Assembly (NCBI RefSeq): GCF_035918015.1
Contig: NZ_CP109132.1
Coordinates: forward strand, 4,464,001 to 4,528,000
Source of the DNA: Streptomyces sp. NBC_01754
GTDB lineage: Bacteria; Actinomycetota; Actinomycetes; Streptomycetales; Streptomycetaceae
Direction: 5' to 3'
Length of the DNA: 64,000 nt
The notes under the pieces are model-generated. The model did not search any database and had not been told where the DNA came from. It saw only the letters and a program-made list of their open reading frames with translations. Shown here piece after piece: positions 7,480 to 64,000 of this stretch. A program made the position numbers and the translations under genes. Each line of letters begins with the position of its first letter. The first letter of the stretch is position 1.

Positions 7480-8412
7480 TCACGGCACCGACGGGCCCCC
7501 CAGGTAGCGGCCGTCCTCGGTGTACGGCCAGGCGTTGGACTTGCAGCCCTTCAGGCCCTTGATCTGCTGCATCATCGCGGGGGCGGGCAGGCCCGGGCCG
7601 GGGCAGGTCTCGTGGCCGTGGCCCAGCCAGTGGCCGACCTCGTGGTTGATGATCAGGGCCCGGTACTCGGCCGGGGAGCCGTCGAACGTCGGTGAACCCA
7701 GCTGCCAGCGCCGGAGGTTGACCATGACGTTCTTCCCGCCTCGGCAGTTCACCTCGCCGCCGGTGTCCAGGCCGTACTGCCCGCAGAGCTTGTCGGTGGT
7801 GGCAGGGGTGCCGATGCGTACGACCAGCCCGGCGGACTCGTCCGTGACTTGGCGGAAGCTGCGGGTGCCGCCCTCGTTCCACCCCCGGGGGTCGTCGAGT
7901 ATCGCGGCCACGTCCTCGGCGGCGCTGTCGGGGTCCACGCCGATCCCGTCCTCCACCTCGACGCGGTAGGCGCTGCCGCCGCCGGAGGAGGAGACACCCG
8001 CGCGGGCCACCGTGAAGGTGCCCGGTCCCGACTCCGGTACGGAGTCCGGGTCCGGTGCCTCCTCGGTGCTCGGGGAGGCCTCGGGGGACTTCGGAGCCTT
8101 AGGAGCCTTCGGGCTCGCAGACGCCTCGGGTGAGGAGGGGGCCGGTGACGCCGGGCCGGTGGGTTCCCGGGCCACGGCTACGGCGTCGTCGTCGTGCTGC
8201 CAGGGCGGGTTGACGAAGAGGAACGCGGCGAAGGCGCCGACCGCGACGATCGCCCCCGCGACGACCGCGCGGCGTCTCTGCCGACGTCTCCGGCGCTGCT
8301 GGGCCCGCCTGCGGCTCTGTGCGCGCGAGGGCTGAGGCCCGGAAGCGGGTGTTCTCGGGCGCCGCCGGGAGCCGCGGGAGTTCCGTATTCGACGTGTACT
8401 TTCGCTATGCAT
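7480..8412 (-). CDS. DUF3152 protein: membrane-anchored metzincin-like zinc peptidase
   Basis: 310 residues. A very Arg-rich N-terminus (1-48) precedes one hydrophobic helix (about 49-67, AVVAGAIVAVGAFAAFLFV), then a Pro/Ser/Ala-rich linker (about 70-130) and an extracellular domain of about 180 residues. That domain carries HEVGHWLGHGH at 257-267, which fits the HExxHxxGxxH zinc motif of metzincins exactly. The membrane orientation should place the domain outside the cell (type II). The family is found in actinobacteria as DUF3152; its substrate is unknown. The start is an ATG at 8412. It is convergent with the mqnC transcript. Confidence 0.85.
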   Translation of the reverse strand: MHSESTRRIRNSRGSRRRPRTPASGPQPSRAQSRRRAQQRRRRRQRRRAVVAGAIVAVGAFAAFLFVNPPWQHDDDAVAVAREPTGPASPAPSSPEASASPKAPKAPKSPEASPSTEEAPDPDSVPESGPGTFTVARAGVSSSGGGSAYRVEVEDGIGVDPDSAAEDVAAILDDPRGWNEGGTRSFRQVTDESAGLVVRIGTPATTDKLCGQYGLDTGGEVNCRGGKNVMVNLRRWQLGSPTFDGSPAEYRALIINHEVGHWLGHGHETCPGPGLPAPAMMQQIKGLKGCKSNAWPYTEDGRYLGGPSVP

Positions 8413-15858: not shown

Positions 15859-16571
15859 GCGACGAACTGAACACCAACAGCGGCCAGGTGCCCGCGCCCA
15901 ACGACGGCTCCGGCGAGGTCATCGGCGTACGCAAGGGCATGTTCGGCGCGAACAACGGCGGCGACACCTCCGGCTACGGCGGGCTCGTCCGCACCGTGAC
16001 CCTGCCGGGCGCCACCTCCCGGCCGTACGGCGGCTGGTTCGACGAGGTGGCCGACGAGCTGGAGGGCGCCCTGGAGGAACAGGAGCTGCTCCCCTCCGAG
16101 GTCATCGAGAAGACCGTCGTCGACCGGGGCGAACTCACCTTCCACATCGCCCGCGAGCACCTGCCCCGGGTCGCCCGCACCCTGCGCGACGACCCCGCCC
16201 TGCGCTTCGAGCTCTGCACCGGGGTGAGCGGCGTCCACTACCTGGGGGACAAGGGCCGCGAGCTGCACGCGGTCTACCACCTGCGGTCGCTGACCCACGG
16301 GCGGCTGATCCGCCTGGAGGTGTCCGCCCCGGACAGCGACCCGCACATCCCGTCCCTCGTCGAGGTCTACCCGACCAACGACTGGCACGAGCGCGAGACC
16401 TACGACTTCTTCGGGCTGGTCTTCGACGGACACCCCGCCCTCACCCGGATCATGATGCCGGATGACTGGCAGGGCTTCCCGCAGCGCAAGGACTACCCGC
16501 TCGGCGGCATCGCCGTCGAGTACAAGGGCGCCCAGATCCCGGCTCCGGACCAGCGGAGGTCGTACAGCTGA
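15855..16571 (+). CDS. nuoC: NADH-quinone oxidoreductase subunit C
   Basis: 238 residues from the GTG at 15855, which overlaps the nuoB stop by 4 nt. A frame open further upstream belongs to nuoB territory and is ignored. The 30-kDa subunit signature [18 protein letters not shown] is present, followed by [20 protein letters not shown]. NuoC is a scaffold of the peripheral arm, bound to NuoD. The N-terminal 50 residues are Gly/Asn-rich and specific to actinobacteria. NuoC and NuoD are separate here, unlike the E. coli NuoCD fusion. Confidence 0.96.
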
Positions 16572-17893
16572 TGTCCACTTCCCAAGCATCCTCACGCACC
16601 ACCACCGAGGGGACCGTGTACACGGTCACCGGCGGCGACTGGGACGAGGTCGTCGAGTCCGCCGCCAAGGCGGACGACGAACGCATCATCGTCAACATGG
16701 GTCCCCAGCACCCCTCCACGCACGGCGTGCTGCGGCTGATCCTGGAGATCGACGGCGAGACCGTCAAGGAAGCCCGCTGCGGTATCGGCTATCTGCACAC
16801 CGGCATCGAGAAGAACCTCGAATTCCGCAGCTGGACCCAGGGCACCACCTTCGTCACGCGCATGGACTACCTGACCCCGTTCTTCAACGAGGCGGCGTAC
16901 TGCCTCGGGGTCGAGAAGCTGCTCGGCATCGAGGACGAGATCCCCGACCGGGCCACCGTCCTGCGCGTGCTGCTGATGGAGCTCAACCGGATCTCCTCGC
17001 ACCTGGTGTGCGTCGCCACCGGCGGCATGGAGCTCGGTGCCACCACGATCATGATCTACGGCTTCCGGGACCGTGAACTCGTCCTGGACCTCTTCGAGCT
17101 GATCACCGGCCTGCGGATGAACCACGCCTTCATCCGGCCCGGCGGCCTCGCCCAGGACCTGCCGCCCGGCGCGGTAGACCGGATCCGCGAGTTCATCAAG
17201 ACCATGAAGAAGAACCTGCCGGAGTACGACAAGCTCGCCACCGGCAACCCCATCTTCAAGGCCCGCATGCGGGACGTCGGCTATCTCGACCTGACCGGCT
17301 GCATGGCCCTCGGCGCCACCGGCCCCGTCCTGAGGTCCGCCGGACTCCCGCACGACCTGCGCAGGACCGACCCGTACTGCGGGTACGAGACCTACGACTT
17401 CGAGGTGCCGACCGCGGACACCTACGACGCCTACGGCCGCTTCCTCATCCGCCTGGAGGAGATGCGGCAGTCGCTCCGGATCGTCGAGCAGTGCCTGGAC
17501 CGGCTGGAGCCGGGCCCGGTCATGGTCGGTGACAAGAAGATCGCCTGGCCCGCGCAGCTCGCGCTCGGCCCCGACGGTCTCGGCAACTCGCTCGACCACA
17601 TCAAGAAGATCATGGGCACCTCCATGGAGGCCCTGATCCACCACTTCAAGCTGGTGACCGAGGGCTTCCGGGTCCCGCCCGGACAGACGTACACCGCCCT
17701 GGAGTCCCCCAAGGGCGAACTCGGTGTGCACGTCGTCTCGGACGGCGGCACCCGGCCCTTCCGGGTCCACTTCCGCGACCCGTCCTTCACCAATCTGCAA
17801 GCCATGGCGGCGATGTGCGAGGGCGGCCAGGTCGCCGACGTCATCGTCGCCGTCGCGTCCATCGACCCCGTGATGGGAGGCGTCGACCGGTGA
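16571..17893 (+). CDS. nuoD: NADH-quinone oxidoreductase subunit D
   Basis: 440 residues, related to the NiFe-hydrogenase large subunit but without its Ni ligands. The quinone-pocket pair is conserved: His51 ([11 protein letters not shown]) and Tyr100 (RMDYLTPF), with the same 49-residue spacing as His38/Tyr87 of the Thermus enzyme. NuoD forms the quinone-binding cavity with NuoB. The start ATG overlaps the nuoC stop by one base. This is the only nuoD in the window; the second nuo cluster has none. Confidence 0.97.
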
Positions 17894-49897: not shown

Positions 49898-52904
<3,007 letters not shown>

Positions 52905-52969
52905 TGAACTGGACCTCCCTCGGGGCGGCGGCTCGGGACCGTCCGGCCCGCCGGCGGTCCAAGGCTTCA

Positions 52970-53032
52970 CCTTACGTCTGTAAGGGTCACCTTCCTCAGA
53001 TCGATCATATGGCCGATGCGTTTTTGAGTCAG
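52970..53032 (-). promoter_or_regulatory. korAB promoter with inverted-repeat operator or leader hairpin
   Basis: Reading leftward: -35 CTGACT (complement at 53027-53032), 17-nt spacer, -10 TATGAT (53004-53009), the best promoter seen in the window. Some 15-30 nt downstream of the predicted start is CCTTACGTCTGTAAGG (52970-52985), a perfect 6-bp inverted repeat. The leader to the GTG is about 93 nt. Confidence 0.65.
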
Positions 53033-53105
53033 GGATTCTCCGTGTTCGCCGCACGTCACAAGGGCCTCCCGCACCGGAAGGAATCCCCCCGCCCCTCGGT
53101 CTTCG

Positions 53106-53141
53106 GTCCTAGGCCGGTCACGCCCCGGAAGGACCTAGGAC
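53106..53141 (-). terminator. Hairpin at the end of the response-regulator gene
   Basis: GTCCTAGG (53106-53113) pairs with CCTAGGAC (53134-53141). The second arm contains the stop codon of the response regulator, so the stem begins in the last codons. Confidence 0.55.
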
Positions 53142-53794
53142 TTCAGATAGGTGAGCACCGCGAGAACACGGCGGTGATCACCCACGCTCGGTGACAGGCC
53201 CAGTTTCAGGAAGATGTTGCTGACGTGCTTCTCCACGGCGCCGTCGCTGACCACCAGCTCCTTGGCCACCGCCGAATTCGTCCGGCCCTCCGCCATCAGA
53301 CCGAGGACCTCCCGCTCGCGCGGGGTGAGGCACGCCAGCACGTCCTGCTTGCGGCTGCGGCCCAGCAACTGCGCCACCACCTCGGGGTCCAGGGCGGTCC
53401 CGCCCTGGGCGACGCGCACCACGGCGTCCACGAACTCCCGGACCTCGGCCACCCGGTCCTTCAGCAGGTAGCCCACGCCCCGGCTGCTGCCGGCCAGCAG
53501 CTCGGTGGCGTACTGCTCCTCCACGTACTGGGAGAGGACCAGTACCCCGATCTCCGGGTAGTCCCTCCGCAGCCGCACCGCGGCCCGGACCCCCTCGTCG
53601 GTGTGGGTCGGCGGCATCCGCACGTCGGCGACCACCACATCCGGCAGCTCGCCCCGGGCCGCGAGGTCGCCCACCGTCTTGATCAGCGCCTCGGCGTCCC
53701 CCACCCCCGCCACGACGTCGTGACCCAGATCGGTCAGCAGCCGGGTGAGTCCCTCCCGGAGCAGTACCGAATCCTCGGCGATGACGACTCGCAC
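53135..53794 (-). CDS. NarL/LuxR-type response regulator
   Basis: 219 residues from the GTG at 53794, chosen for GGAGG 5 nt upstream and because [15 protein letters not shown] is the standard start; a GTG 12 nt further out is possible. Receiver domain with phospho-acceptor Asp57 ([10 protein letters not shown]) and Lys in YLLKDRV; C-terminal LuxR helix-turn-helix ([34 protein letters not shown]). It follows two DesK-type kinases in the same direction, but a strong hairpin lies 250-290 bp upstream, so it may be transcribed separately. Confidence 0.95.
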
Positions 53795-54047
53795 CCTGTC
53801 CTCCACGACGCTGTGTCCCCCACTGTTGAAAAACGTTCTCTGCGGCCGGTTCACCGGGTGGCGCCCGCGACGCAGCGCGGGTTCCCGCCCCCGGGACGTC
53901 CAGCATCCCAGCATTCGACGCCCGAACGGGACGTCCTACGGATCTTTCCGGTGCTTGGCGCCGGTGCTTCCCACGGGTCCTTCGAACGGGTCCCCTCCCA
54001 CAGGTCTGCCCCACCGTCCTTCACACCGTCCTTCCGACCGCGACAGC

Positions 54048-54089
54048 CCGCAGTGCCCCTCCCGCCTCTTGGCGGAAAGGGCACTGCGG
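54048..54089 (-). terminator. Terminator between sensor kinase 1 and the response regulator
   Basis: Perfect 11-bp stem CCGCAGTGCCC (54048-54058) with GGGCACTGCGG (54079-54089), with an inner CCGCC-TCTT-GGCGG hairpin. It is about 50 nt after the kinase stop. The rest of 53795-54137 shows no gene. Confidence 0.8.
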
Positions 54090-54137
54090 TCTCGTCCGGG
54101 GGTTGTGCGGCACGCGTCCCCGGTGTCCGCCGGCCGG

Positions 54138-55499
54138 TCAGCCGCGCCAGGGCAGCTCGGCGGTGACCGTGGTCGGGCCGCCGGCCGGGGACTCGACGAC
54201 CAGCACGCCGTCCACCGAGTCCAGCCGCTCGGCGAGCCCGGCCAGGCCGCTGCCCGAGGAGACGTCGGCTCCGCCCCGGCCGTTGTCGGTGACCTGGAGC
54301 ATCAGCCGGTCCGCCGCACGCCACACGTCGACCGAGGCCCGGGTGGCCCGGGAGTGCTTGCTGACGTTCTGGAGCAGTTCGGAGACGGTGAAGTAGGCGA
54401 TGCCCTCGATGGCCTGGGCGGGCCTGGACTCCAGGTCCACCTCGACCGTGACGGGGACGGTGCAGCGGGAGGCGACGGCGGAGAGTGCGGCGTCGAGTCC
54501 GCGATCGGTGAGGACGGCGGGGTGGATGCCGCGGGCGAGGTCGCGGAGTTCCTGGAGGGCGACCTTGACCTCGCCGTGGGCTTCGTCGACCATGCGGGCG
54601 GCGGCTTCGGGGTCGGCGGTGAGTTTTTCCTTGGCGAGTCCGAGGTCCATGGCGAGGGCGACGAGGCGGGCCTGGGCGCCGTCGTGGAGGTCGCGTTCGA
54701 TGCGGCGGAGGTCGGCGGCGGCGGTGTCCACGACCACCCCGCGGTCCGACTCCAGCTCGGAGACCCGGTTGGCCAGCCGGGACGGGCCCAGCAGACCGAG
54801 GACCATCAGCCGGTCGACCGAGGCCAGCCCACGCACGATCCACGGGGTGACCAGCACGAGAGCCAGTCCGACCCCGCTGGTCACCGCCATCTCGAAGGGG
54901 GAGTCGAGGTAGACCTGGTGGGTGTTGTCGCCGTACAGCTGGATGCCGCCGGTGCCCGTGTACATCGGGAACACCCAGCGCCACAGCGGGTAGGTGAACG
55001 CCCCCCAGCCGGTCGCCCAGAACGTCACCGCGACCGGGAAGGCGAAGACGGCCCACGGGAAGTGCAGGACCGAGTAGAGCAGGTGCCGCCAGGACACCCC
55101 GCTCTTCAGCATCGCACCCACCCAGGACATCGGTCCGTCCGTCCTGCCGCGTACGGGGTCCGGAGCGGCCACGTCCAGACGGAGCAGCCCACGGGCCCGC
55201 GCACGCTCCAGCGCCCCGAATCCACGGCACATGGCCAGCCCGGCGGCGAGGATCGGAATGCCGAGGAAGGTGATCAGCAGGCCCGCGCTCACGGACACCA
55301 TGGTGATCGCGAAGGTGAACAGCACCGCACTGATCGGCAGGCTCAGCAGCAGATAGGCCAGCTCGCGCCAGACGCGCGCCTCAAGGGGGGCACGCAGCGC
55401 CGCCGGAAGGAAATGCTTCCCCGGACGGGCCGGGGGGCGGCCCCCCGAGCCGGCGGGACCGTGCTGGTCCCGGGTGTCCAGTCCGTATGCCGTGGCCAT
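54138..55499 (-). CDS. DesK-type sensor histidine kinase 1
   Basis: 453 residues from the ATG at 55499 (MATAYGLDTRDQHG). A membrane sensor domain with about five helices (60-250: LLLSLPISAVLFTFAITMVS, VTFWATGWGAFTYPLW) precedes a HisKA_3 dimerisation domain with His272 (ERDLHDGAQARLVALAMDLG) and a HATPase domain (FTVSELLQNVSKHS, GLAGLAERLDSVDG). It presumably phosphorylates the downstream NarL regulator. The stimulus is unknown; such sensors often detect membrane or envelope state. The region encoding 247-331 is DNA-identical to kinase 2. Confidence 0.93.
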   Translation of the reverse strand: MATAYGLDTRDQHGPAGSGGRPPARPGKHFLPAALRAPLEARVWRELAYLLLSLPISAVLFTFAITMVSVSAGLLITFLGIPILAAGLAMCRGFGALERARARGLLRLDVAAPDPVRGRTDGPMSWVGAMLKSGVSWRHLLYSVLHFPWAVFAFPVAVTFWATGWGAFTYPLWRWVFPMYTGTGGIQLYGDNTHQVYLDSPFEMAVTSGVGLALVLVTPWIVRGLASVDRLMVLGLLGPSRLANRVSELESDRGVVVDTAAADLRRIERDLHDGAQARLVALAMDLGLAKEKLTADPEAAARMVDEAHGEVKVALQELRDLARGIHPAVLTDRGLDAALSAVASRCTVPVTVEVDLESRPAQAIEGIAYFTVSELLQNVSKHSRATRASVDVWRAADRLMLQVTDNGRGGADVSSGSGLAGLAERLDSVDGVLVVESPAGGPTTVTAELPWRG

Positions 55500-56459
55500 G
55501 GGTGGCGTCCGTTTCTTCCTGGCGGGAACTCCCGCGAGCCGGTACAACGGCTGATCGTCCGTGCGCCTGGAGGGCGTGGTCGTCGCCGATACCTCAAGAG
55601 TGCTGTGCGGCGTGTTTCCGCACCATGAGGGCGGTATCCGTATCCAGGCGGGGGTTTTCCCCACCCCGGGGCCACGGAGGGGCGGCCGGTTCATGGCGGG
55701 CCGGGCCCGGCGGCCGGGATTGCGGTGGCCGGGGCGTGTGGACCCGTGCCGGGACGTGCCCGGGACATGCCGGGACGTGCCACTCCGGCCCGGGAGGAGT
55801 GGTCTAAGGGGCGACGTGTTTCGCCGGCATGTCCGTACGGTCCCGCCAGGGCAGCTCGGCGGTGACCGTGGTGGGCCCGCCCTCCGGGGAGTCCAGGACG
55901 AACAGCCCGTCCACGGCCCCCAGCCGTTCCGCCAGCCCTGACATGCCCGTACCGCCGTCCAACCGGGCACCGCCCGTCCCGTCGTCCCGGACCTGGACCA
56001 GCAACCGGTCCCCCGAGCGCCACACGTCGACCGACGCCGTACGGGCCCGGGAGTGCTTGCTGACGTTCTGGAGCAGTTCGGAGACGGTGAAGTAGGCGAT
56101 GCCCTCGATGGCCTCGGCGGGCCGGGCGGGCAGCTCGACCGACACCGTGACGGGGACGGTGCAGCGGGAGGCGATGGCGGAGAGTGCGGCGTCGAGTCCG
56201 CGGTCGGTGAGGACGGCGGGGTGGATGCCGCGGGCGAGGTCGCGGAGTTCCTGGAGGGCGACCTTGACCTCGCCGTGGGCTTCGTCGACCATGCGGGCGG
56301 CGGCTTCGGGGTCGGCGGTGAGTTTTTCCTTGGCGAGTCCGAGGTCCATGGCGAGGGCGACGAGGCGGGCCTGGGCGCCGTCGTGGAGGTCGCGTTCGAT
56401 GCGGCGGAGGTCGGCGGCGGCGGTGTCCACGACCACCCCGCGGTCCGACTCCAGCTCGG
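54505..56459 (-). repeat. 256-bp identical block shared by the two adjacent kinase genes
   Basis: 54505-54760 and 56204-56459 (offset 1699, no gaps) are identical by eye; a flanking ~170 bp on the H-to-ATPase side is also highly similar with scattered differences. The block encodes ELESDRGVVVDTAAADLRRI through the His box to GIHPAVLTDRG. Direct repeats of this size can recombine. Confidence 0.85.
55500..55803. other. 304-bp gap between kinases with short GGGAC repeats
   Basis: No gene seen. GTGCCGGGAC, GTGCCCGGGAC, ATGCCGGGAC and GTGCC follow one another at 55746-55780, a short degenerate tandem array (period 10-11). The rest holds presumably the kinase 1 promoter. Confidence 0.4.
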
Positions 56460-57000
56460 CCACCCGCCTCTCCAGTTCGTCGGAGGGCGAGAGCAGACCT
56501 CGCACCATCGCCCGGTCCGCGTTCGCCAGCCCGCGCACGATGAAGGGGAGTACCGGCCAGAGGACGAACAGACCCACCAGCACCACCGAGAACGTCACCA
56601 CGCCCCAGGGGAGCCGGATGAACGAGTACAGCAACGTCCGCCAGGCCACCGGGTCCTTGAGCTGTGACCACAGCCAGGAGAAGAAGCCCCGGTCCCGGCG
56701 GCCGCGTGGCATGGGGCTCGGCTCGTCGATCCGGACCCCGAGCAGTCCACGTGCCCGGCCGCGTTCCGCACGTCCGAGGCCGCGCGCACCGCGCAGTCCC
56801 AGCGCGAGCAGCGGCAGACCGACCACGGTGACGGACAGCCCCGCACCGACCCCGATCAGGAACACCGTGTAGACGAAACCGGCCAGTGCCATGGGGAGAT
56901 TGGCGAGCAGATACGCGATCTCCTGCCACGTCCACCGGTCGAAGGCGAAGCGTGCGGGCGGCGGCCGGTCGGTGTCGGGCGGGGGAGGGGTCATGGTCAT
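55804..57000 (-). CDS. DesK-type sensor histidine kinase 2
   Basis: 398 residues from the ATG at 57000 (MTMTPPPPDTDRPPPARF); the second Met is two codons in. Four or so membrane helices (25-165: IAYLLANLPMALAGFVYTVF, WGVVTFSVVLVGLFVLWPVL) are followed by HisKA_3 with His206 and a HATPase domain (DDGTGGARLDGGTGMSGLAE). The sensor part is shorter than in kinase 1, so the two probably sense different signals while sharing one phosphotransfer interface, consistent with both feeding the same regulator. It is divergent from nuoA2. Confidence 0.93.
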   Translation of the reverse strand: MTMTPPPPDTDRPPPARFAFDRWTWQEIAYLLANLPMALAGFVYTVFLIGVGAGLSVTVVGLPLLALGLRGARGLGRAERGRARGLLGVRIDEPSPMPRGRRDRGFFSWLWSQLKDPVAWRTLLYSFIRLPWGVVTFSVVLVGLFVLWPVLPFIVRGLANADRAMVRGLLSPSDELERRVAELESDRGVVVDTAAADLRRIERDLHDGAQARLVALAMDLGLAKEKLTADPEAAARMVDEAHGEVKVALQELRDLARGIHPAVLTDRGLDAALSAIASRCTVPVTVSVELPARPAEAIEGIAYFTVSELLQNVSKHSRARTASVDVWRSGDRLLVQVRDDGTGGARLDGGTGMSGLAERLGAVDGLFVLDSPEGGPTTVTAELPWRDRTDMPAKHVAP

Positions 57001-57109
57001 GGGACCAGCCTGCCGGGCGGCACGCCCGCACGCCATGGGGTTCGTGGGTGGCGAACAGTAGGGATAACCCCACCTCACCCGCTCGCTCCGGGACGGGCGG
57101 CACGCGAAG

Positions 57110-57291: not shown

Positions 57292-57702
57292 GTGGCGGAC
57301 GTGCCGGACGTACCGGAACCGACCGTACTCGCGGCGGACTACTTCCAGGGCTATGCGGTGGTCGGACTGCTCGCCGTGGTCGGCGTGCTGTTCGTCGCCG
57401 TCGCCTTCGGCGCCGGCCGGTTGCTGAGGCCGGTGGTCCCGACACCGGAGAAACTGCTCACTTACGAATGCGGCGTGGACCCCGTGGGGGAGGGCTGGGC
57501 CCATACCCGGGTCCGCTACTACGTGTACGCCTTCCTGTACGTGATCTTCGCCGTCGACTCCGTCTTCCTGTTCCCGTGGGCCACCGTGTTCGCGGCGCCC
57601 GGGTACGGGGCGACGACGCTGGTGGAGATGTTCATCTTCCTCGGTTTCCTGGCCGTGGGACTGCTCTACGCATGGAAGAAGGGCGTCCTCGCATGGGCGT
57701 GA
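57292..57702 (+). CDS. nuoA2: NADH-quinone oxidoreductase subunit A, second cluster
   Basis: 136 residues from the GTG at 57292 ([20 protein letters not shown]); a GTG at 57271 is also possible. Three helices with the family motif [17 protein letters not shown] and [13 protein letters not shown]. Compared with NuoA1 the motif LEAYECG becomes LLTYECG and FDIEIVFLYPW becomes VDSVFLFPW, so the conserved acidic pair of that helix is partly altered. It opens the second nuo cluster. Confidence 0.92.
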
Positions 57703-58331
57703 CGAGCCGGCCGGACCCGCAACCCCCCGTTCCGCTTCCCGATCCGACCCTGCCGTCCGAGCGGGAGAAGCTCGGCGTGCTGTCCCGGCTCGCGCCCGAA
57801 CCGATGAAGGTGGTCCTCAACTGGGGCCGCCGCTACAGCCTCTGGGTCTTCAACTTCGGACTCGCCTGCTGCGCCATCGAGTTCATCGCGGCGTCCATGG
57901 CACGGCACGACTTCATGCGGATGGGCGTCATCCCGTTCGCGCCCGGCCCCCGCCAGGCCGATCTGATGGTCGTCTCCGGCACGGTGACGGACAAGATGGC
58001 CCCGGCCGTGAAGCGGCTGTACGAGCAGATGCCCGAGCCCAAGTACGTCATCTCCTTCGGCGCCTGCTCCAACTGCGGTGGACCGTACTGGGATTCGTAC
58101 TCCGTGACCAAGGGCGTCGACCAGATCATCCCGGTCGACGTCTACGTACCGGGCTGCCCTCCCCGGCCGGAGGCGCTGCTCCAGGGGATCCTGAAGCTCC
58201 AGGAGAAGATCGCCCGCGAGTCGCTCGCCGGGCGGTACGCCGACGGCTCCGTCACCCGACCCTCGGCCGACGCCCTGCGCAGCGGCCTCGTCGCCGCCCC
58301 GAAGGCACCGGGGGAGGAGGGGGAGCAGTGA
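57693..58331 (+). CDS. nuoB2: NADH-quinone oxidoreductase subunit B, second cluster
   Basis: 212 residues from the ATG at 57693, overlapping nuoA2 by 10 nt; a GTG at 57699 is an alternative. All four N2-cluster Cys are kept: Cys59-Cys60 (LACCAIEF), Cys125 (GACSNCGG) and Cys155 (PGCPPRPE); Cys128 is an additional one. An electron-transferring role therefore looks intact. The partner NuoD, which completes the quinone site, is not encoded here. Confidence 0.94.
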
Positions 58332-59779
58332 GCGCCGCCGACGCGTACGACCGGCTGCCCGACTCCGTCACCGACCTCTTCGGTCCGGAGGCCACGGCCG
58401 CGTACGCCTACGACCTGCTGACCGTCGACGTCCCCGCCACGGGCTGGACCGCCGCCCTGGAAACGGCCCGGGACGCCCTGGGATGCACCTATTTCGACTG
58501 GCTGAGCGCGGTCGACGAGCCGGGCACCGGCTTCCGTGTCTGCGCCCACGTCGCGGCCCTGGGCGCGGGCACGGTGCGCCGTCTGCTCGTCCGCACGACC
58601 GTCCCGCACGACGCGGCCACCCTGCCGAGTGCCGTCGGTGTGTACGCGGGCGCGGCCTGGCACGAGCGCGAGACGCACGAGATGTTCGGCATCGGCTTCC
58701 AGGACCACCCGCATCTGGTCCCGCTGCTGCTGCCCGAGGGCTTCGAGGGACACCCGCTCCGGAAGGACTTCGTCCTGGCGGCCCGGGTCGCGAAGGCCTG
58801 GCCGGGCGCGAAGGAGCCGGGCGAGACCGGGCACGGCGGGCCGAAGCGGCGCACGATGCTGCCGCCGGGCGTGCCGGACCCCAACGAATGGGGGCCGCTC
58901 AAGGGGCAGCTCCCGCCGGCCCCGGCCCGAGGGGCGCGCGCGGCGGGCGCGGCGGGGGACCGGCCCGTACGCCGGACCCGCAGCGCGAGCGAGGTCTCGG
59001 CCGCCCAGCGCAGGGCGACACCGGAGCCTTCGGGCCCGGCGTCGGACGGGGCACGGAGTCCGGGCCCGGCCGGTGCTCCTGGCACGCCTGATACCCCGGG
59101 GGCGGCCGGTGCTCCGGAGGCGGCGACGCGGGGCCCGGGCGCGCCCGAGCCAGCGCGGGCCGCCCGTCCGCGCCGCAACCGCAGCGCTTCCCAGGGCTCG
59201 GCCAGCCAGGCCGCCGCGCCCAGGACCGTGCCTTCCGAGGCGGATGCGGACGCGGGCACGGATACGGGGACGAGCGGGGGCACGGATACGGGGACGAGCG
59301 GGGGCACGGATACGGGGAGGAGCGCGGGCACGGATGCCGACGCGGCAGGCGCTCCGGCGCAGGCCACACCACCGGCCCCACACGCCGACTCCCCGACGCC
59401 TGCCGGGTCCGGGGCCGACCCGGAGACCGCCACGCCCCGGCCTTCACGGCAGGCCGGTCCCGCGCGCGCCTCCGACGCCCCCTGGCACCAGGCCCGTCCC
59501 GCCTTCGACGGCTCCCCGTCCCCGAAGACGGACGCCCCGGGCCCCACGAAGGCGGACACCGCCCCGGAACCGCTTCCTGCCGCAGAGGCCGAAGCAGAGG
59601 AGAGCTCCAGCCCGGAGCCCGGCGCCGAGGCCCCGCACGACCCCGGGGCCGGAACCGCCGCCCAGGACCGCGAACCCGGCTCCGACTCCCCGCCCGCACC
59701 CGGCCCTGAGGCCCCCGCACCCGGCCCCGGGACCCCTGAACCCCGAACCGACCGTCCCGCCGGAGGCGATACGGCGTGA
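58328..59779 (+). CDS. nuoC2: NADH-quinone oxidoreductase subunit C, second cluster, with long low-complexity tail
   Basis: 483 residues. Residues 1-160 are a NuoC domain ([40 protein letters not shown]). The remaining ~320 residues are Pro/Ala/Ser/Gly-rich with repeated DTGTSGGT octapeptides and no sign of a NuoD domain, so it is not a NuoCD fusion. The tail is probably disordered. GTGA overlaps on both sides put nuoH2 directly after it, leaving no room for nuoD-G. Confidence 0.9.
59255..59326 (+). repeat. Three tandem 24-bp repeats in nuoC2
   Basis: Copies at 59255-59278, 59279-59302 and 59303-59326 (third slightly changed) with core CACGGATACGGGGA encode [24 protein letters not shown]. 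Length variation between strains is likely. Confidence 0.8.
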
Positions 59780-60744
59780 ACGACGTACTCGACGTCGCCC
59801 TCCGGCTGATCATCGTGTTCGCCGTGTTCCTGGTCGTCCCGCTCGTCGTGGGGCAGACCGAGCACAAGGTGATGGCCCATATGCAGGGCCGGCTGGGCCC
59901 CATGTACGCGGGCGGCTTCCACGGCTGGGCCCAGCTCGTCGCGGACGGGGTGAAGTTCGCGCAGAAGGAGGACATCGTCCCGGCCGAGGCGGACCGGCGG
60001 GTCTTCCAACTGGCCCCGGCCGTCGCGCTCCTCCCCTACCTCCTCGTGCTCGTCGCGATCCCGGTCGGACCCGGCGACGGAGCCGTCGGCCAGGTCATCG
60101 ACGCGGGCATCTTCTTCGTGCTCGCCGTCATGGGGATCGGCGTACTCGGGTCGCTGATGGCGGGCTGGGCGTCGGCCAACAAGTTCTCCCTGCTCGGCGG
60201 CCTTCGTACCGCCGCGCAACTCCTCGCCTACGAACTGCCGATGCTGCTCGCCGCGGCGTCCGTGGCCATGGCGGCGGGCACGGTCTCCCTGACCGGCATC
60301 CTGGACGCCTTCGAGTGGTGGTGGCTGCCCTGGCAGATCATCGGGGCGCTGGTCTTCTTCGTGGCCGGGCTCGCCGAGCTCCAGCGGCCGCCCTTCGACA
60401 TGCCGGTCGCCGACTCCGAGATCATCTTCGGGGCGTACACCGAGTACACCGGGCTGCGGTTCGCCCTGTTCCTGCTCTCCGAGTACGCCGGAATCGTCGT
60501 CCTGTGCGGTCTGACCACCGTCCTCTTCCTGGGTGGCTGGCACGGCCCGTTCGGCGCGGACGGCCTCGGCTGGGTCTGGACGCTCCTCAAGGCCGCCGTG
60601 CTCGCGTTCGTCGTCATCTGGCTGCGCGTCACCTTTCCCCGGATGCGCGAGGACCAGTTGCAGAAGTTCGCCTGGACGACGCTCATCCCTCTCGCCCTCG
60701 CGCAGATCGCGCTCACCGGCATCGTGAAGGTGGCGATCAACTAG
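59776..60744 (+). CDS. nuoH2: NADH-quinone oxidoreductase subunit H, second cluster
   Basis: 322 residues, eight helices. The loops differ from NuoH1: [20 protein letters not shown] in place of [13 protein letters not shown], and [20 protein letters not shown] in place of [38 protein letters not shown] is conserved. The altered quinone-channel loops suggest a different quinone or partner. GTG start overlapping nuoC2. Confidence 0.93.
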
Positions 60745-61397
60745 TGCCCCCGATTCCCGGCTCAGGCCTGGCCAAGGGCCTTGCCGTGACCCTGCGGACC
60801 ATGACGAAGCGCACGGTCACCGCCCAGTACCCGGACGTCCAGCCCGAACTGCCGCCCCGCACCCGCGGGGTCATCGGACTGTTCGAGGAGAACTGCACGG
60901 TCTGCATGCTCTGTGCCCGTGAGTGCCCCGACTGGTGCATCTACATCGACTCCCACAAGGAGACCGTGCCCCCGGCGGCTCCCGGTGGACGCGAACGCAG
61001 CCGCAACGTGCTGGACCGGTTCGCGATCGACTTCGCCCTCTGCATGTACTGCGGTATCTGCATCGAGGTGTGCCCCTTCGACGCGCTTTTCTGGTCACCG
61101 GAGTTCGAGTACGCGGAGACGGACATCCACGAACTCACCCATGAGCGCGACAAGCTCCGCGAGTGGATGTGGACCGTGCCGGAGCCGCCCGCACTCGACC
61201 CGGGGGCCGAGGAACCCAAGGAGTTCGCCGCCGCCCGCAAGACGGCCGACAAGCTCCGCGCCGCCGAAGAGGCCCGGCAGGCGGCAGAGGCCCAGCAGGC
61301 CGCCGAGGCCCGGCAGGCGGCAGAGGACCGGCAGACCCCGGGCACAGGCACAGACACAGGCACCGGCCCGGACACGGAGCAGGGGGGACAGGGGTGA
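60744..61397 (+). CDS. nuoI2: NADH-quinone oxidoreductase subunit I, second cluster (2x[4Fe-4S])
   Basis: 217 residues from the GTG at 60744 (one base shared with the nuoH2 stop). Two complete ferredoxin motifs: Cys51, 54, 57, 61 ([12 protein letters not shown]) and Cys100, 103, 106, 110 ([12 protein letters not shown]). In the absence of NuoE-F-G, this subunit is the natural docking point for soluble ferredoxin. The C-terminus is an Ala/Glu/Gln-rich helix repeat ([20 protein letters not shown]). Confidence 0.93.
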
Positions 61398-62026
61398 ACT
61401 TCGCAGCGGCCGCCGGGCATTCCGGCTTCCTCTCCCCGACCGGCGTGGAGATCGCCTTCCTCCTCGTCGGTCTCGCCACCCTCGGCGCGGCGGTCATCAC
61501 CGTCACGACCAAGCAGCTCGTGCACGCCGCGCTCTGGCTCGTCGTGGCGCTCGGCGGCCTGGCCGTCGAGTACCTGCTGCTCACGGCCGAGTTCATCGCC
61601 TGGGTGCAGGTCCTGATCTACGTCGGCTCCATCGTCGTCCTCCTCCTCTTCGGGCTCATGCTCACCCGGGCGCCCATCGGCCGTTCCCCGGACGCCGATT
61701 CCGGTAACCGGTGGGTCGCCCTCGGTGTGGCGGCCGCCTCGGCCGCCGCCCTTGTCTGGGTCGTCGTGGACGCCTTCCGGACCACATGGATCGATCTCGG
61801 CGGCCCGGCCCAGGGCTCCACGGATGTGACCGGCGCCTTCCTCTTCCGGCACTGGGTGCTGCCGTTCGAAGCACTCTCCGTCCTGCTGCTCGCCGCCCTC
61901 GTCGGCGCGATCGTCCTCTCCCGCAAGAGCGGCAAGGGCTTCGAGGACGGCAAGAACGCCGAGGGGGACGGCAAGGACGCCGCGCAACAGGGCACGATCC
62001 GCGCGACCCGAGAGGACAAGAGCTGA
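61394..62026 (+). CDS. nuoJ2: NADH-quinone oxidoreductase subunit J, second cluster
   Basis: 210 residues from the GTG at 61394 (4-nt overlap). Five helices, with [20 protein letters not shown] as the conserved third one. Charged C-terminal tail ([18 protein letters not shown]). Shorter than NuoJ1 and nearer the usual family size. The nuoK2 ATG overlaps its stop by one base. Confidence 0.92.
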
Positions 62027-62445
62027 TGCACCTCGCCTACCCCGCCGTGCTCGCCGTCCTCCTCTTCTGCACCGGGCTGTACGGCGTCCTCGCCCGCCGC
62101 AACACGATCCTCGTCCTGATGTCCGTCGAGCTCATGCTCAACGCCGTCAACCTCAACCTGGTCGCCTTCGACGTCTGGCTCCGCGACACCCTCCACTCCG
62201 GCCAGGCCCTCACCCTCTTCGTCATCGCCATCGCCGCCGCCGAGATCGGCATCGGCCTCGCGATCGTCCTGGCCGTCCACCGCAACCGCGGCGGCTTCCA
62301 CGTCGACCGGCTCCGCGACACGGCCGAGACCGACGACGCCGAAGCGCTCCCGGACGACGCGTACGCCGACGCCACCGCCGGCGCCCCCGCAGACCAGGCC
62401 ACTGCTCCGGCAGGGAAGGCACAGAAGGCAGAGGCCACCGCGTGA
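62026..62445 (+). CDS. nuoK2: NADH-quinone oxidoreductase subunit K, second cluster
   Basis: 139 residues: a NuoK core of about 100 with the membrane glutamates kept ([40 protein letters not shown]) and an added acidic, Ala-rich tail ([20 protein letters not shown]). The tail is absent in NuoK1. It overlaps nuoL2 by 4 nt. Confidence 0.93.
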
Positions 62446-64000
62446 CCATCACGACCCTCGCCGTCCTCGTCCCCCTTCTCCCCTTCCTGGGTGCCGCGGC
62501 CGGTCTTCTCCTCGGGCGGACCGCACCCGGCTTCGTCCGGCCCCTCGCCGTACTGCCCACACTCGCCGCCGCGGCCCTCGCGGTCGTCGTCGCCGTGCGC
62601 CAGGGCGGCGGCCGGGCCGTCGACGCGGCCACCCAGCTCACCCCCACGGGCTCGGTCCCGATCGACCTCGCCCTGCACCTCGACGGCTTCGCCGTCCTCG
62701 TGGCCGTCCTCGTCGGACTCGTCGCGACCTGCGTGCAGATCTACTCCACGGCCTATCTGAAGGACGACGTCCGCTACCCCTCGTACGCGGCCCTCGTCTC
62801 CCTCTTCACCTCCGCGATGCTGCTCGTCGTCTACTCCGGCGACCTGATGGTGCTCCTGGTCGGCTGGGAGATCATGGGCATCTGCTCGTACTTCCTGGTC
62901 GGCCACTACTGGGAGACGCCCGAGGCCCGCGCCGCCTCCCTCAAGGCCTTCCTGGTCACCAAGCTCGGCGACGTGCCGTTCCTCATCGGCCTGTTCGCCC
63001 TCGCGGCGGACACCGGGTCCTTCCGCATCACCAAGATCCTGACCGCCGTCACCCACGGCGGACTCGACCACCCCACCCTCATCGCCCTGCTGCTCCTCGC
63101 GGGCGTCGCCGGCAAGTCCGCGCAGTTCCCGCTGCACACCTGGCTGCCCGACGCGATGGCGGGCCCCACACCCGTCTCCGCGCTGATCCACGCCGCGACG
63201 ATGGTCGCCGCCGGCATCTACTTCGTGGCGCGCCTGCTGCCCGTCTTCGCGGCCTCCGGCGCCGCACTCGTCGTCCTCGCCGTGATGGCGGCCGTCACGA
63301 TGATCGGATCCGGGCTGGCCGCCCTCGCCCAGGACGACATCAAACGCGTCCTCGCCTACTCGACCATCGGCCAGCTCGGCTACATGTCGGGGGCCCTGGC
63401 CGTCGGCGACCGCGGGGCCGCAGTCTTCCACCTCCTGTCGCACGGAGCCTTCAAGGCCGTCCTCTTCCTCGGCGCCGGCGTCGTCATCCACGCGGCGGGC
63501 ACCAACTCGCTCGCCGCCATGTCCCGTATGGGCGGCCTCGCCAAGCGCATCCCCGACGCCTACTGGACGATGACCGTCGCCCTCCTCGCGCTCGCCGCCA
63601 TCCCTCCGTTCGCCGGCTTCTTCTCCAAGGAAGCCGTTCTCGTCGCCGCCGAACACACCGCCTTCGGCGACCGCGACGTCGCCCCGGCCGCGGCCGGCTG
63701 GACGATCCTCGTCGCCGGACTGCTCGCCGCCGTCCTCACCGCCGCGTACGCCACCCGCCTCTGGCTCCTGGCCTTCCGCGGACGGGGTACCGAGGCCCCC
63801 GACCACGGCAGGGAACCCGCCGCGATGACCTCCGTCCTGTGGGTCCTCGCCGTCCCCACCATCGGCTTCGGCCTCACCACCGGTGTCCTCGGGGACTGGT
63901 TCGACGGCCACGGCCTCACCCCCTCCCTGACGACCGCCGTCCTGTCCACCGGCGTCGGCCTCGCCGGCGGACTCGTCACCTACGGGGCCTGGCGCCACAC
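62442..64000 (+). CDS. nuoL2: NADH-quinone oxidoreductase subunit L, second cluster (runs off window)
   Basis: 519 codons visible from the GTG at 62442; the C-terminus lies outside. Antiporter-type residues are conserved: [20 protein letters not shown] (Glu), [20 protein letters not shown] and [18 protein letters not shown] (Lys/His), [16 protein letters not shown] (Lys). A proton-pumping role therefore looks possible. nuoM2 and nuoN2 are expected to follow but cannot be seen. Confidence 0.93.

Follow-up and report, generated by a model that had tools for sequence, protein, structure and literature searches.

The genome of Streptomyces sp. NBC_01754 (assembly 7.77 Mb) carries, in addition to a first nuo operon, a second cluster of genes for complex I, here called nuo2. 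The window, that is, the whole stretch of DNA analysed (64 kb), lies within the 7.74 Mb contig C1 and cuts the cluster at its edge. Beyond the edge (stretch L022) nuo2 continues with L2, M2 and N2 up to C1:4531603. The genes are listed below, in window coordinates unless L022 is given.

57292..57702, plus strand: nuoA2; PF00507, 110 bits.
57690..58331, plus strand: nuoB2, subunit of the iron-sulfur cluster N2; PF01058, 101 bits; start codon probably near 57693.
58328..59779, plus strand: nuoC2; PF00329, 108 bits (amino acids 33-153), the sole Pfam match.
59776..60744, plus strand: nuoH2; PF00146, 336 bits.
60744..61397, plus strand: nuoI2; Fer4 match, TIGR01971 match below cut-off, two CxxCxxCxxxC motifs.
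61394..62026, plus strand: nuoJ2; gene model, order kept in relatives.
62026..62445, plus strand: nuoK2; gene model, order kept in relatives.
62442..64000, on to L022:1442, plus strand: nuoL2, cut by the window edge; PF00361 match.
L022:1446-3071: nuoM2; PF00361 match, gene model.
L022:3068-4603: nuoN2; PF00361 match, gene model.

Genes A2-B2-C2-H2-I2-J2-K2-L2 follow one another in this order on the plus strand, with an overlap of a few bases at every junction; the gene models agree here with the initial annotation, which had ended the cluster at L2, where the window cuts it, and had missed M2 and N2. A Pfam scan of five proteins (A2, B2, C2, H2 and I2) found a domain in each. Cysteines of NuoB2 stand at positions 66, 67, 132, 135 and 162 (219-amino-acid form), four of the N2 pattern among them, and NuoI2 has both 4Fe-4S motifs, so the N2 ligands and ferredoxin motifs are intact, as had been claimed. 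The gene set of an 11-subunit complex I (A, B, C and H to N) is present, J2 and K2 being assigned by model and order. The E, F and G of the canonical 14-subunit complex are absent from the cluster: none of D, E, F and G is encoded from A2 to N2, and no search for second copies of E, F and G was made elsewhere in the genome. There is likewise no NuoD between C2 and H2. A NuoD hidden in the tail of NuoC2 was rejected, PF00329 being the only Pfam match in that protein; the translation after this domain is a low-complexity tail of about 300 amino acids. The C2-H2 spacing varies between relatives, and the length of the tail is probably variable. Where NuoH1 has the loop GPNRHGP, NuoH2 has GPMYAGG, as do 18 of 21 rows from the host's class (hereafter the class). 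The altered quinone-channel loop noted before is thus real but not unique to nuo2, the same loop being variable also in 11-subunit complexes outside the phylum and no NuoH position being diagnostic at the 93% level used below.

The genome-wide search for a second NuoD that the initial annotation had proposed was made with PF00346. It returned two genes, NuoD1 of the first operon and another that was matched in two pieces at C1:3168558-3169307.

C1:3168168-3169310: nuoD2; 380 amino acids, full-length; PF00346, 237 bits.
16571..17893 of the window, plus strand: nuoD1 of the first operon; Thr at the position of bovine Arg85, Tyr at the quinone-ligand position.

The gene nuoD2 lies 1.35 Mb from nuo2. 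Among curated models PRK12322 scores best with it, at 398 bits against a cut-off of 522. In many class genomes the locus is situated between ftsH, folE, folP, folB/K on the one side and panC, nad, coaX, lysS on the other (names read from sequence). The large subunit of [NiFe] hydrogenases has CxxC nickel motifs at both ends. NuoD2 was rejected as a subunit of this type: it has no CxxC, and PF00374 falls short of its cut-off (19.6 against 25.8 bits). A [NiFe] hydrogenase pair at L019:5532-8476 (the small subunit recognised by Pfam, the large one read from sequence) is a separate locus. The absence of D, E, F and G holds for the cluster; for D it fails in the genome, which has a second NuoD. The initial annotation had named as evidence against its view a D2/E2/F2/G2 set encoded elsewhere and co-purifying with NuoB2; of this, the nuoD2 gene elsewhere in the genome was found. 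NuoD2 is taken to be the D subunit of nuo2 with a probability of about 0.85, and nuo2 is probably an 11-subunit complex I without the NADH module, its D gene relocated. A relocated D accounts for the incomplete look of nuo2.

NuoD2 accompanies nuo2 across genomes. It occurs in 100 of 101 genomes of the genus (own genome included) at 86-100% identity. A total of 246 class genomes were surveyed, NuoH2 being called at 63-100% identity (NuoH1 stands near 42%): NuoH2 and NuoD2 are found together in 59, NuoH2 only in 2, NuoD2 only in 39 and neither in 146. NuoD2 is thus present in 59 of the 61 genomes with NuoH2; the two misses are G114 (72% complete) and G202 (80% complete).

Related clusters from the phylum but outside the class (20 loci) mostly hold a D of the same type in place. 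In 16 of the 20, D stands between C and H, the four without it all belonging to family f51; three clusters of families f86 and f90 likewise lack it. Identity of the in-cluster D is 46-59% with NuoD2 but 34-40% with NuoD1. NuoD2 is found in 15 of the 17 f51, f86 and f90 genomes (54-58% identity), the exceptions being G360, with fragments at contig ends, and G407, with NuoD1 only; in 13 of these 15 a NuoH2 is also known, with NuoD2 far away from it or on a separate contig. Within the class, 19 of 20 nuo2 loci, counting those that show both genes, have no D between C2 and H2. In a tree of 61 NuoD sequences the 13 NuoD1s split from the rest on a branch of 1.22 with support 100/100. A single displacement of D before the class split from f51, f86 and f90 was considered as a possibility: the NuoH tree groups these families with two D-in-place loci (97/97), a topology forcing them with the class has p-AU 0.07, and the NuoD tree does not decide. 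When an Acidimicrobiia D was used as query against protein sequences, close relatives alone were listed.

NuoD2 has diverged further in most genomes that lack nuo2. Divergence was taken as identity to own NuoD2 at 40 chosen loci of the 98 class genomes with NuoD2 (32 of the 39 without NuoH2, 8 of the 59 with it). Identity is 73-81% in 8/8 loci with nuo2 and 41-71% in 28/32 loci without. The neighbours PanC (55-64%; measured in 14 of the 32 loci without nuo2 and 6 of the 8 with it) and FolP (57-69%; 14 and 4) overlap between the two groups, where measured; a third neighbour, F5, gives 52-70% and 61-68%. Families f14 and f28 contain both states, and for this reason more than one loss is suggested. 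A PF00146 scan of 35 genomes with NuoD2 and without NuoH2 gave exactly one NuoH match in 29, none in G157 and at least two in five.

The quinone site of NuoD2 is of a variant type. The quinone ligands of NuoD, a His and a Tyr, are regarded as conserved, and the Tyr, which holds the head group, is treated as almost universal among complexes I. The contacts, which we take to be His59, Tyr108 and Asp160 (bovine) and Tyr87 (Thermus), were placed on NuoD2 via alignments. The Tyr position is Trp (Trp78) in 66/66 NuoD2s: 12/12 orphans (D genes outside a cluster) of genomes with nuo2, 6/6 f51-type orphans, 16/16 in-cluster D and 32/32 orphans of genomes without nuo2. It is Tyr in all 13 NuoD1s compared (own genome, G028 and 11 genomes outside the class). 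His29 is kept in 34/34 nuo2-type D and in 62/66 of all NuoD2s; His29, Arg55, Arg75 and Asp77 are all kept in 12/12 orphans with nuo2. The Asp160 position (Glu130) is Glu in 12/12 orphans with nuo2 and 6/6 f51-type orphans. Of the 16 in-cluster D, 14 have Glu there and 2 have Gln, while only 8/32 orphans without nuo2 have Glu. Named loci (best 80 of 587) comprise 37 of Trp type and 43 of Tyr type. Residues diagnostic at 93% in both groups are Met53, Trp78 and Asp377 in D; none was found in NuoB, NuoH or NuoI. By record title, 36 of these 37 Trp-type loci are actinobacterial and one is titled Acidobacteria. The 14 Trp-type clusters among them also have no E, F or G.

Several observations weigh against NuoD2 as the D subunit. 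Class genomes without NuoH2 keep NuoD2 in 39 of 185 cases (e.g. L060, L067, L077), and in the 32 of their sequences compared Arg and Trp are kept 32/32, so that NuoD2 probably has some role independent of nuo2. His is kept in 28/32 of them, and NuoD2 in these genomes does not look like plain decay. Four loci without nuo2 (G116, G129, G167, G255) have NuoD2 at 77-78% identity. The fast NuoD2 sequences are mostly one clade in the tree, and the counts are uncorrected for kinship. Intact NuoD2 is missing from five genomes with NuoH2, namely G028 (the exception in the genus, with the nuo2 cluster present and NuoD2 not found), G114, G202, G360 and G407.

Two of these observations speak for a complex that borrows NuoD1 from the first operon, one of three options of the initial annotation, with NuoD2 serving an unrelated function: G028, G114, G360 and G407 all have NuoD1, and the 39 genomes show NuoD2 without NuoH2. 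In G202 neither type of NuoD was found. This option is nevertheless improbable. Related clusters contain their own NuoD2-type D, nearly all NuoH2-positive class genomes have NuoD2, its divergence follows the absence of nuo2, and, of the five exceptions, four are at most 90% complete and one, G028, is broken into about 1300 contigs. Still less credit is given to a ferredoxin-linked pump of a novel type that works without D. It draws on the lack of D in the own operon and between C2 and H2 of the class loci, and is opposed by the same in-cluster D, co-occurrence and divergence, and by the existence of nuoD2 itself. Both the quinone cavity and the environment of N2 depend on NuoD, and the four residues named above are retained in the NuoD2 of genomes with nuo2. 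The remaining option, a distant NuoD homologue, fits best: nuoD2 is encoded elsewhere, and related clusters hold a D of its type.

A gene of the PF02636 family adjoins nuoD2.

L018:7144-8172: midA; PF02636, 55.9 bits (cut-off 23.3); its TGA overlaps the ATG of nuoD2 (ATGA) at 8169.

MidA of three relatives matches PF02636 with 128-141 bits; its best solved relative is 4f3n/4g67. MidA near nuoD2 was sought by tblastn in the fetched stretches, with queries partly from the same loci, and was found in 8/8 loci of the genus (own included), 37/40 of the class and 9/9 of f51, f86 and f90. The orientation of midA relative to nuoD2 varies within the genus. The PF02636 profile is matched in 86/98 class genomes with NuoD2, including 29 of the 39 without NuoH2, versus 5/148 without NuoD2, four of the five being at most 80% complete. 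Among the named loci (best 80 of 587), MidA is present in 30/37 of Trp type (21/23 orphans and 9/14 clusters) and 0/43 of Tyr type, the profile being actinobacterial, so that distant members could be missed. In the nine clusters it stands after nuoN2 on the same strand every time.

The bovine Arg85 position is Arg in 66/66 NuoD2s (Arg55) and Thr in 13/13 NuoD1s. Since NuoD1 has Thr there, NuoD2 is the only possible substrate of the two own NuoDs. The model for this assignment is the mitochondrial NDUFAF7, which we take to be a PF02636 member acting by symmetric dimethylation of the NuoD Arg. PMC3829151 reports that it places a dimethyl mark on Arg85 of NDUFS2 and that assembly requires it; the equivalent Arg is dimethylated in Paracoccus and present yet unmodified in E. 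coli (PMC3750175). By analogy, MidA would more likely than not methylate Arg55 of NuoD2. The unmodified Arg of E. coli counts against this, as do the 43/43 Tyr-type loci of the same named set that have Arg and no MidA found, the 5 of its 14 Trp-type clusters that lack MidA, and the loci outside the class, of which only 2 in 20 have MidA close to the cluster (L107 and L108, just after nuoN2). The last point is the reason why the assignment is not put higher. If true, MidA-NuoD2 would be a simple bacterial system for arginine methylation of NuoD, with the Thr of NuoD1 as a built-in contrast. The literature searched contained no description of Trp at the quinone site or of the MidA link.

Genes for a putative electron donor lie in the window upstream of nuo2.

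49898..50956, minus strand: korB, 2-oxoacid:ferredoxin oxidoreductase beta subunit; PRK11866 251 bits and TIGR02177 241 bits, both below cut-offs.
50949..53054, minus strand: korA, 2-oxoacid:acceptor oxidoreductase alpha subunit; TIGR03710 654 bits, over cut-off; start possibly 52775.

The pair is about 4 kb from nuoA2 on the opposite strand, with three genes between. By their sequence, these (53135-57078, minus strand) seem to encode two histidine kinases and a response regulator; PMC13118837 mentions a response regulator cluster in the neighbourhood of nuoABC and korAB. Ferredoxin reduced by KorAB is the slightly favoured donor of nuo2, a guess made because NuoI2 is intact and the cluster has no NADH module. 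The ferredoxin link of the initial annotation was judged sensible. KorAB is supported by its presence within the fetched stretch of 11/20 class nuo2 loci of several families, and by the association of nuoABC with korAB noted for Streptomyces (PMC13118837). Telling against it, korAB was not seen in the fetched stretch of the other 9/20 class loci (the contigs of L035, L043 and L047 stop at or before A2) and was found in 0/20 loci outside the class. NuoD2 may be the D subunit of a complex with another donor, i.e. a different ferredoxin-reducing enzyme or another small carrier, or of a complex running in reverse. This is a serious competitor, if the weaker of the two; donors of 11-subunit complexes are unsettled and possibly several, as stated in PMC11238625.

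A third complex I-like cluster is located at L020:3125-11230 (C1:7221124-7229229), with genes A3, X3, H3, J3, K3, L3, M3 and N3, and is also found in G129 (L154). X3 (393 amino acids, no Pfam match) resembles NuoB over 43 columns (91%) and NuoD over 26 columns (89%) in profile comparison; the control profiles of NuoC and NuoH gave 0.1%. It is without the CC motif of N2. Homologues number 408 at E 0.001, and among the 120 listed the named ones are mostly Streptomyces hypothetical proteins. As read from sequence, the cluster may encode a complex I-like assembly without redox centres.

The proposed working of nuo2 is as follows. The cluster would encode ten of eleven subunits, and orphan NuoD2, at a conserved distant locus beside midA, would be the eleventh. 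Reduced ferredoxin, probably from the neighbouring KorAB, would pass electrons to NuoI2 and on to N2 of NuoB2. A quinone, probably menaquinone, would be reduced in the cavity of NuoB2, NuoD2 and NuoH2 with changed head-group contacts, and its reduction would drive proton pumping by H2 and L2-N2. MidA would methylate Arg55 of NuoD2 in the manner of NDUFAF7 on Arg85 of NDUFS2. The missing D of nuo2 is explained, largely by what is already in print; the remainder is an actinobacterial variant with Trp and a linked MidA. In laboratory streptomycetes the Trp lineage stands beside the Tyr version in one cell, which makes the role of the residue directly testable. A wider view, in which Actinomycetota would have their own complex I lineage (Trp quinone site, NDUFAF7-like methylation of NuoD) together with a stand-alone NuoD2-MidA module that acts outside complex I where the other subunits are lacking, is tentative and on balance doubtful.

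The nuo2 of Streptomyces was described in 2013 and 2021 (nuoA2, B2, D2, H2-N2; one operon except for a separate nuoD2, no N-module) in two studies of Streptomyces transcripts, PMC3765725 and PMC8388888. It is the same cluster as that found here; the passages seen make no mention of nuoC2, MidA, Trp or clusters with D in place. The 11-subunit complexes I of Bacillus, Paenibacillus, Desulfitobacterium, Chloroflexi and others resemble nuo2 in having A-D and H-N, no E-F-G in the cluster, and the motifs of NuoI and N2; nuo2 differs from them in its own D being encoded elsewhere. Cyanobacterial and chloroplast NDH-1 has no E-F-G and has ferredoxin as donor. It is like the nuo2 cluster in the first respect, and in the second so far as ferredoxin is the proposed donor. 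Trp-type loci differ from Tyr-type loci (37 versus 43, of the best 80 of 587) in Trp for Tyr, in Glu or Gln for Asp, and in the MidA of the locus. Own MidA differs from NDUFAF7 in being bacterial and in that methylation is here inferred from genes; like NDUFAF7 acting on Arg85 of NDUFS2 (PMC3829151), it belongs to PF02636 and has the target Arg available, in a NuoD whose gene adjoins its own.

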